DNA of 64,000 nt. It comes from Patagioenas fasciata. Its lineage: Eukaryota; Chordata; Aves; Columbiformes; Columbidae. The DNA is taken from contig NC_092522.1 in NCBI RefSeq assembly GCF_037038585.1, positions 125,098,661-125,162,660 of the forward strand, written 5' to 3'. Every line of letters starts with the position of its first letter. The first letter of the stretch is position 1. The position numbers were made by a program, and so were the translations under genes. Below are positions 15,925-18,900 of this stretch, in pieces. The notes under the pieces were generated by a model. The model saw only the letters and a list, made by a program, of their open reading frames with translations, searched no databases and had not been told where the DNA came from.

Positions 15925-18900
15925 CTGCAGAGGAAACAAATACCCATCGTTAATGCCAACGCGATAGTGGCCCCTCCTTGCCTCCCCATGCCTGGCTGTC
16001 CCCCCAGGGACCACCCCACAGCACGTCCCAGGACCCCAGTGTCCTCTGGGGAGTGGGGTTTCCTACTCACTTGGGTTTCTCCAGCGGGTCAGGCTCGTTG
16101 CGAGCCAGCCCGGCAGGGGATTTCTCTGCCTCCTCTGCTGTCAGAAGGTGCAGTTCAGCCTCGACTTTCCCCTGCAAGGAGCAGAGAGTTGTGCTGAGAC
16201 CCAGGCAGTGCTCCCCGCCTCAGCCCCTCCTGACCTGGTGACAAGAGGGGACCTGAGGGAACACAGGCAAGTGCAGGGAGTGGGGGTGTCTGCAAAGAGC
16301 GCAAGCCCCAGGACACAAAATCCCTCCTTTTTCCCCATCCTTACAGTGACCTCCAGCTCATCGTTCTCATCTCTGGCCACAAACGGCCACCAGCCCTTCA
16401 CCCGCTTCTGCTTGAAGATGGAGACCATGGGCAGCTCTGCCTCGTTCGTCACCATCTCCAGGCTGCACTGTTTCGACGTCTTGGCTCCCCGGGGGAAACG
16501 ATTCAGGTCCAGCTCGATGGCCCCTGGCAGGAGAAAGGGGAGGACAGATGTTAGCACCCCCAAAATGCTGAGTCCTTGGCTGGAGATGGGCTGGACCAGC
16601 ATGTCCTGCCCTGGGGAGCAGCTTTGAGCTAGTTCTGGGAACAAACAAGCTGACATCTTTGCTTCAGGAGCAGCTTTTGAACAGTAGCAGCGGAGACAAG
16701 GACTCTCATCCTACCTGTAGCATCTAAAGAGGTTTGTAGGACATTGTGGCTGCCCTTGTAGGTTCTGCTCTAATATAGGCTTTGTCTCATCCCACACTGC
16801 TCCCCACTTGTCCAGCCGTGGGGTCCCAGCTCACTGGATCCCCCACTCACCGAGGAAATCGTCGGCCGAGAAGTGATCAGCGTCCCAGACCTGCAGGGTG
16901 AGGCGGGCTGGGATCTTGTACTCGGTCTCATCCCAGGAGAACATGGACTCCTTCTTGGAGATGACGATCTTCTCCTCTGCCATCAGGTAGTCAAAGGGGA
17001 AGATGTAGCGCCAGTTGAAGTTGCCTTCACCAGTGAGCGAGTGGTAATGGACGTCCGTGTCTTGCTTGTCCTCCTGCTGACCCTTCAGCCACCTGCAGAG
17101 CCCAGAGGGAGGTGGCACACGTTACAGGAGGGAGGAGAAAGGCACAAAGGCACAGGACCATCCTGCCTGTGCAGCCAGGATGTCTCCAGGATGGACTGCA
17201 AGGACCTGAGAGGCATCAGCAACAGGCTGGGGCTGCTCGAATCACTGCAGCAGCCTCTCTGAGGGGTGACATGGGGACAGAAGGGACCTAGAGGGAACAG
17301 GGTGGGTTGGACAGCAAGAAACACAAGCAGGTTGTCAGAGGTCTTTCTTTGGAAGGGAGGTGTTAAATAGGTGGGCAGGAGCAACGAGCATCGCTGGGGA
17401 GTCTGGAGCGGAGTGTGCTGGAAGGATGTCCCTAGCCTGCGCCCGTGGAGCCAACAGGCCCAGGAGACTGTAGAGACCTCACTCCACCATGGCATGGGTT
17501 GGCCCATCCTGATGGCAGCTCGGTCTGTGCTGGTCACTGCAGGCTCCCTGTGTCCGGACACATCTATCCAACCTGTCTCAGGTATTTAGGACCTGCCAAC
17601 TCTGCTCGAGGGTGGGGTTGTCTCTGCTGACCCCGTCTGAAGGGACCGGCAGTGCCCAGCTCAGGCACTGTCACTGGGTCCCAGCCCTGCCAGAGGGGGT
17701 GGCCGTGGGACCTTACCATCACGTGGGCTTGTATGCCTAATTTTCTGTCTCCGGTGAGCAGGATTCTCAGAGCAAAAGGGACACCGAGAATGGTCCCTAA
17801 GAGCAAGTCTGGGCCCTAGGGGAACACAGCTTTGTTTTAAAGACTGTGGGTACCGCCAGCCCCTTTCTCTGATGAGCCAAGGCACCTCCATTCCCCAGGT
17901 TGCTGTGTCTGTCCTGCAGCCAGCAGGACATGACTCCATGCTCGGGCACCCAACACAGGGTCATTCTCTTGGCCTCTGATCCGCTGCTCTGCTCCACAAA
18001 ACACCAAGATTGAGTGATTCCCCGTCACACTGATGGGGAAGGGCTGAAGCATTTCAGATCCAGAACCACTGCAGAAAATCTGCTGTGCTGGCAGGACCCA
18101 GGATGCCAAAACAGAGCCAGTTTTCTGAGAGGTGCACGTGGAGGAGACCTGGCCTGAGCTGGTGCTGCTGCAGAGGAAGCACCGAGCAGTTTAACCATGG
18201 GTGGGAAATCACCACACCAGCCTGAAGTGCTGTTGCGTTGATTTGAGGTCCTTTAAAGAATGGGGTGAGCTTTGGAAGGGGTTTCCCCCTACAGCTGGGT
18301 GACAGGAAAGTGGAGATGGGAACTAACCCATTTGGCTCAAGGTGCTGGAATTAGAAGTTGCGGGGCTGAAAAGCCAAATCAGGACATCAAGACAAACACG
18401 ACAAGGAAAAGAGGGGCAGACAGGACCAAGCAGCAAGGCCACGGCCATTACCCCCTGACAGAGATGTCAAACGACTTCTCTCCCACCAGAAAAGCATCAT
18501 CTTCCAAAACCACCTCATCAGTGTTCCAGATTATAACCCGCAGCTCAAAGCTGGGCAGCCAGGCAAGAGAGAGACGGAGAGGCAAGAAACAGCACAGAAA
18601 TGGCAGTGTTGGCGCTGTCTGACCCTGCAGCCCGGTCCGTGCTGTAACCACACTTCCCGCCCCAAAACCACCCCAGGGACCCCAGCAAGCACGAGCATCC
18701 CCCCAAAAGGAGCAGCGGAGGGGACGGTACTGGCACGCCACACTGTACCTACCCCCGGACAAAAATGTCACTGGATTTCTCGCCAGTGAAGTAGTCATCG
18801 TCCTCCAGGATGACCTCGTCTGTGTTCCACACTATCACTCTAAGCTCATATCTGGCAGGAGGAAGGGAGACAAGGAGGTGAGGCATGGGGGCCGGCAAAA

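Follow-up and report, generated by a model that had tools for sequence, protein, structure and literature searches.

An ancient tandem duplication of the otoferlin loop 1 exon and its probable decay in a pigeon-like bird

Exon substitution in the otoferlin gene (OTOF) is described for the C-terminal end of the mammalian protein, where, according to two reports (PMC10394277, PMC7768390), a transcript takes either exon 47, the brain form, which encodes the leucine-rich TMD2, or exon 48, the cochlear form, which encodes TMD1. OTOF is also listed, with transcript ENST00000403946, as a case of 'homologous substitution' in PMC9579139. The exons considered here encode loop 1 of the last C2 domain, one of the parts of the protein that face the membrane during transmitter release from hair cells. 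In a cryo-EM study of mouse otoferlin (PMC12526402), the calcium ligands of this loop are given as E1742, D1743 and D1754, and F1746 and F1747 are named among the residues that insert into the membrane or lie close to it; mice in which calcium ligands of the same domain, in loop 3, have been replaced are deaf according to the same study. That study calls the last C2 domain C2G, and the paper it cites for the mutant carries 'C2F' in its title, a mismatch that calls for care when residues are compared between otoferlin papers. Within the accessible text of the open literature on otoferlin and OTOF exons, subscription papers lying outside this scope, we found no description of the exon pair reported below.

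The 64,000-nt stretch of DNA analysed here (the window) carries an OTOF gene on its minus strand, the relevant features of which are as follows.

15744..62785, minus strand: OTOF as modelled, 39 exons encoding 1800 residues in one frame
20083..20171, minus strand: upstream OTOF exon, with donor GAA/GTAAGA, leaving AA for a split codon
18851-18753, minus strand: exon a (w36 in the first-pass annotation), 99 nt, encoding loop 1 of the last C2 domain, with flanking split codons
18551..18752, minus strand: intron between a and b, 202 nt, long enough for splicing, with a 64-nt AG-free stretch before b
18550-18452, minus strand: exon b (w36b in the first-pass annotation), 99 nt, tandem homologue of exon a
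16851..17092, minus strand: downstream OTOF exon, whose first G completes a split Gly codon and which encodes the rest of the last C2 domain
15924-15744, minus strand: last OTOF exon, of the K type, the single last exon in the window

The model starts at the equivalent of approximately residue 195 in the mammalian protein and includes the stop, its 5' limit being that of the BLAST match, and exon limits are uncertain at the 5' end and near the lysine-rich linker (34998-27928, with one GC donor). The gene is otoferlin rather than another ferlin: the full-length matches are otoferlins, and the downstream exon scores 168.5 bits against otoferlin 9qe2 and at most 108.6 against myoferlin and dysferlin. 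Among the matches listed, the otoferlin closest in protein identity is that of rock pigeon (98.6% of aligned ungapped positions, as against 97.7% for stork), so that the DNA probably comes from a pigeon or dove. The intron before exon a contains, at about 19320-19540, a segment that appears to resemble avian CR1 retroposons in their 3' part. Elsewhere on the minus strand, at 7601-8293, the Lys/Glu-rich linker of otoferlin weakly and repeatedly matches several overlapping stretches, which suggests a low-complexity repeat array. Downstream of OTOF, also on the minus strand, a near-identical translated stretch (VTPEPPQNPLK.GPRL.CTGDITVTHKGCP...) recurs near 3144, 9313 and 12426; the copies at 3144 and 12426 lie some 9.3 kb apart and may reflect a local duplication or a repeat.

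The first-pass annotation had described a tandem duplicated OTOF exon, consisting of two 99-nt exons of equal phase, 202 nt apart and without stops, that would preserve the frame even if both were included. Coordinates, lengths, phases and junctions were all confirmed, the latter being 20083/18851 and 18753/17092 together with the borders of b at 18550 and 18452. The two exons are adjacent, of the same length and phase, complete the same split codons, carry no stops, are bounded by splice sites and are homologous, and are thus real tandem duplicates. Their length is a multiple of three, and the frame is kept with a, with b or with both.

Nucleotide identity between a and b is 66/99. Of the residues touched by the exons, 24 of 34 are identical, which becomes 24/33 without the split first codon, the value originally claimed, and 23/32 for whole codons. 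The whole codons divide into 9 identical ones, 14 with synonymous differences and 9 replacements. When 32 nucleotide differences with the same transitions and transversions were placed randomly on exon a, the maximum over 20,000 trials was 20 identical residues, never 23, and a stop was present in 59% of the trials, which rules out chance similarity. The divergence between copies that the first-pass annotation had proposed to calculate amounts to a dN of 0.17-0.19 with a saturated dS, undefined by NG86, for which the maximum-likelihood value of 22 is no estimate. Similarity is limited to the exons and their splice-site bases, without extension into the introns, and in the surrounding 3 kb the exon itself is the sole long repeat pair that links both places. 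Counted from alignments with the solved otoferlin chain 9qe2_A, exon a is identical at 32/34 positions and exon b at 26/34. The possibility that b came from a different ferlin was considered and rejected, since b lies within an OTOF intron and its identity, counted by eye, is 26/34 to otoferlin and 20/33 to dysferlin; bit scores of b against ferlins take in the shared next exon and have no bearing on its origin.

The distribution of both exon types was assessed on 265 different otoferlins from 159 species, gathered from the best 120 of 2484, 623 and 2886 matches in three protein searches. All of them are annotation models, not reads, and exon type was called from the sequence that immediately precedes the next exon. 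Two of the searches, the first and the second, leaned towards b, and with the database clustered at 90%, b isoforms may hide behind an a-type representative; the species counts given here are not frequencies, and a bird with a alone is no proof of the loss of b. Among the models listed, a is present alone in 124, b alone in 72 and the two together in 67 (one hand-assigned), and the remaining 2, from budgerigar, contain a garbled b. Exon b is present in 79 of the 159 species among the matches listed, ranging from sharks to golden eagle. In fishes it is found, among these matches, in sharks (2/2), sturgeon (1/1) and teleosts (66/67 species), and in tetrapods in amphibians (7/18), squamates (1/9, Anolis sagrei), turtles (1/12, Chelonia mydas) and birds (1/47, golden eagle), with counts of 0/2 in crocodilians and 0/1 in mammals, where the only species listed is a hamster with an a-type model. 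The proposed search for the second copy in other vertebrates was positive in protein models; the exon is no bird speciality and extends to fishes, where it is widespread, to amphibians, a lizard and a turtle, and the proviso that the exon might already be annotated proved apt, as public protein models carry b.

Since b occurs in sharks and ray-finned fishes as well as in amphibians and reptiles, the duplication dates from the jawed-vertebrate ancestor or earlier; a and b are an ancient tandem exon duplication that sharks and bony vertebrates inherited from their common ancestor. A recent or bird-only duplication, or an assembly artefact, is refuted by these comparative data: its one argument is the adjacency of the copies, and it would have to accommodate saturated synonymous divergence, a repeat confined to the exon and b-type exons in sharks, fishes, frogs, Anolis, Chelonia and the eagle, leaving it with practically no probability.

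The relative age of the two copies was addressed with a tree of the 33-residue peptides, which held all but one of the 14 distinct a peptides, the exception coming from a truncated model, and had dysferlin and myoferlin as its outgroups. The split between a and b received an SH-aLRT of 86.6 and an ultrafast bootstrap of 93, with the window b on the b side. The outgroups attach among b, which puts the root on the b side with an unsupported placing node (0/57). Exon b is perhaps the older copy because dysferlin and myoferlin share its MSDIYV stretch, and we offer only as a suggestion that b looks older and a derived. FER1L6, the closer paralogue, is mixed at the informative sites.

We compared loop 1 of the two exon types on 80 b and 117 a species-peptides among the matches listed, one of the a peptides coming from a truncated model. 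From a to b, position 19 consistently changes from D to A, positions 20-21 from (Y/F)F to F(M/L), position 26 from S to M and position 30 from F to Y. These positions correspond to residues 1745, 1746-1747, 1752 and 1756 in the numbering of PMC12526402, a register fitted to the residue letters printed in that study. Position 19 is A in 79 and G in 1 of the 80 b peptides listed, DDD thus becoming DDA in nearly every b. The first-pass annotation had reported two loop changes, of which EDDDYF to EDDAFL is indeed typical of b, whereas KSFDIS is specific to the window, the b family having KMSDIY at this place. From the loss of the third Asp it had further proposed that splicing could switch calcium or lipid binding, and for calcium this we could not support. 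The residue lost in b is 1745, which lies outside the loop 1 ligands named in PMC12526402, and the three that are named, E1742, D1743 and D1754, are all present in the window b and in 79, 80 and 80, respectively, of the 80 other b peptides listed.

In a protein made with b, loop 1 would change from EDDD(Y/F)F to EDDAF(M/L), with a less acidic and differently hydrophobic tip, and Met and Tyr would replace Ser and Phe just after it. Since the three ligands are kept, calcium binding is predicted to persist in the b form, whose tip is less acidic and chemically different, and a change in its membrane (lipid) contact is possible. Retention of all named ligands together with an altered tip points to an exon that would adjust how the loop enters the membrane or how strongly the domain binds in response to calcium, rather than one that switches calcium off. 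A natural second loop that is nearly unchanged from sharks to frogs would amount to a ready-made experiment on calcium sensing and membrane contact by otoferlin, best placed in zebrafish and frogs above all.

Splice sites were scored with position matrices built from the other sites of the same gene. The donor of b (GGG/GTAATG) outscores just 4 of 36 other donors and its acceptor just 6 of 37 other acceptors, as against 11/36 and 27/37 for the donor and acceptor of a. Exon a thus has sites of ordinary to good quality, and those of b are usable, at the weak end of the range of the gene; the earlier description of good splice sites on both exons holds as regards usability, but not as regards the low rank of those of b. 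The AG-free stretch before b (64 nt) is ordinary beside those preceding two neighbouring acceptors (73 and 70 nt), and this, with an intron of 202 nt, leaves mutual exclusion through too close a branch point unsupported. Neither frame nor spacing forbids joint inclusion, and an mRNA could take exon a, exon b or both, in frame; at the annotation level a and b are not mutually exclusive, both being present in 67 of the 265 models among the matches listed.

Joint inclusion as the normal state, by which the first strand and loop of the C2 domain would be present twice, would be consistent with the preserved frame, with these 67 models (one hand-assigned) and with the lack of a branch point close enough to forbid it. 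We consider it very unlikely, however, since models with b only (72) and those with a only (124) outnumber those with both among the models listed, several of the latter come from pipelines that, in our judgement, may merely chain exons, and a second copy of the strand would probably upset the C2 fold. More generally, the joint models may be artefacts of gene prediction.

Alternative use, as proposed by the first-pass annotation, is possible in other vertebrates, where a-only, b-only and joint models are annotated, and conjectural in this bird. Among the matches listed, separate a-only and b-only models are found in Ranitomeya imitator, Pleurodeles waltl, Spea bombifrons and Anolis sagrei, and three species have b-only and joint models, as alternative use would predict. 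According to PMC13069148, OTOF is present in two copies in sturgeon and teleosts, and some differences between models may therefore lie between genes. A choice between a and b would need splicing factors acting on the weak sites of b, and regulated use of the pair is inferred.

The b family varies little, and against the 80 b peptides listed the window b has unique letters at 4 of 33 positions. At position 22 it has V where the family has T (78) or A (2); at position 26, S, the a-type letter, where the family has M (79) or V (1); at position 27, F where all 80 have S; and at position 30, S where all 80 have Y and all 117 a peptides listed have Phe. The window b differs from that of golden eagle at 4/33 residues, as compared with 7/555 in the neighbouring exons 28-39 (Fisher p 0.002) and with 28/1485 in a wider set from which six poorly aligned or variable exons were left out (p 0.004), a comparison that concerns one lineage and four changes and is thus a small sample. 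Exon a, on the other hand, shows 0/33 differences from stork, pigeon and duck, is the type present in mouse 9qe2 and is the only type in 45 of 47 bird species among the matches listed. Both budgerigar models (P0200, P0204) have a garbled b (NSQLQAIVWNTNEVVLDDDFLVGKKM, followed by the next exon) replacing a; the replacement is probably a choice of gene prediction, and b appears to be degenerating in a parrot.

These protein comparisons are most simply explained by a relaxation of constraint on b in birds, which would have advanced further in some lineages than in others. The intact b of golden eagle implies that decay is not common to all birds, and in the window the lack of a stop, both splice sites and all ligands argue against full neutrality. 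The window b would thus be still open and spliceable but drifted, with a doing most or all of the work, and we infer a reduced use of b in this bird. Taking loop and lineage together, the pair probably represents an ancient alternative exon that tunes the membrane loop of the last C2 domain and is now decaying in this pigeon-like bird; such decay, if true, would be a simplification of the otoferlin repertoire.

Two other readings of the same exon bear on this. In one, b is already dead here, an intact-looking relic that is never spliced, and all otoferlin is made from a. The four replacements at sites that other b copies conserve (three of these sites being invariant or nearly so in the 80 peptides listed), the excess divergence from eagle, the weak splice sites, the a-only models of 45/47 bird species listed and the garbled budgerigar b are all compatible with such a relic, yet the exon has no stop or frameshift, keeps both splice sites and the three ligands, and has an intact counterpart in eagle, so that we regard its death as possible but doubtful. 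In the other, b is fully used and the four changes are an adaptive retuning of the loop, for which one may cite their clustering after the loop tip (22, 26, 27 and 30) and the integrity of ligands, frame and splice sites. This we judge improbable: the replacement of an aromatic residue by Ser, where Tyr is found in 80/80 b and Phe in 117/117 a peptides listed, looks damaging, the splice sites of b are weak and b is missing from nearly all bird models listed.

Decay of b in birds may have a counterpart at the C-terminal end of the protein. The last exon in the window was matched, on its predicted peptide, to exon 48, the cochlear type, because the other type (RYFIWHTYRW) is the leucine-rich one. 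It is presumably this exon 47/48 pair that underlies the 'homologous substitution' entry ENST00000403946. Probes and a scan of both strands of the window, including 15925-16070, for an exon 47-like exon of the R type returned just the K exon and chance-level matches. The K-type end is found in models of 47/47 bird species among the matches listed, taken from a database clustered at 90%, and the R-type end, among the same matches, in turtles (6/12), crocodilians (1/2), squamates (3/9), amphibians (10/18), sharks (2/2) and teleosts (32/67 species). Several ray-finned fish models (P0071, P0082, P0088, P0089, P0100, P0101 and others) have a third C terminus (SWLLSPIRV...FSLPSA...), distinct from both mammalian tails.

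No pattern of pairing between b and the brain-type last exon emerged from the species-combinations among the matches listed. Amphibians present b with R (4), b with K (5), a with K (12) and a with R (7); turtles, squamates and crocodilians a with K (19), a with R (10), b with K (1) and both exons with K (1); and fishes b with R (20), b with K (14), both with R (14), both with K (18) and a with R (1), the remainder in fishes being one hand-assigned combination of both with K and 11 unclassified. The protein models suggest that birds may have shed both alternative exons, b and the brain-type tail. As a tentative wider scenario, which we rate as possible at best, jawed vertebrates would have a further, cell-type-specific b otoferlin with similar calcium binding and altered membrane entry; birds would be losing b and appear to have lost the brain TMD exon, which leaves the cochlear form; mammals seem to keep the brain exon and only a; and b would perhaps be the older copy.

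Comparison with described systems situates the pair as follows. Like exons 47 and 48 of OTOF itself (PMC10394277, PMC7768390), a and b are two homologous exons, and the former are tissue-alternative in mammals; unlike a and b, which can be joined in frame, exons 47 and 48 concern the transmembrane tail and are exclusive since exon 47 ends in a stop. A variant Otof transcript of sterlet, kept in electroreceptors and not in neuromasts (PMC13069148), similarly attests to cell-type-specific otoferlin transcripts outside mammals, but concerns exons 6-10, near the N terminus. Exons 5a and 5b of SNAP25, another gene that acts in calcium-triggered exocytosis, likewise arose by tandem duplication long ago and yield two protein versions, but are described as mutually exclusive and required in mice (PMC2581893), whereas in OTOF one copy appears to have been lost in some lineages and models with both exons exist. 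Finally, the tandem exons 4a and 4b of OGDH give Ca2+-insensitive and Ca2+-sensitive versions, and a branch point close to the donor keeps them from being used together (PMC7969005); in OTOF, by contrast, the 64-nt AG-free stretch before b is ordinary and the calcium ligands are the same in both exons.
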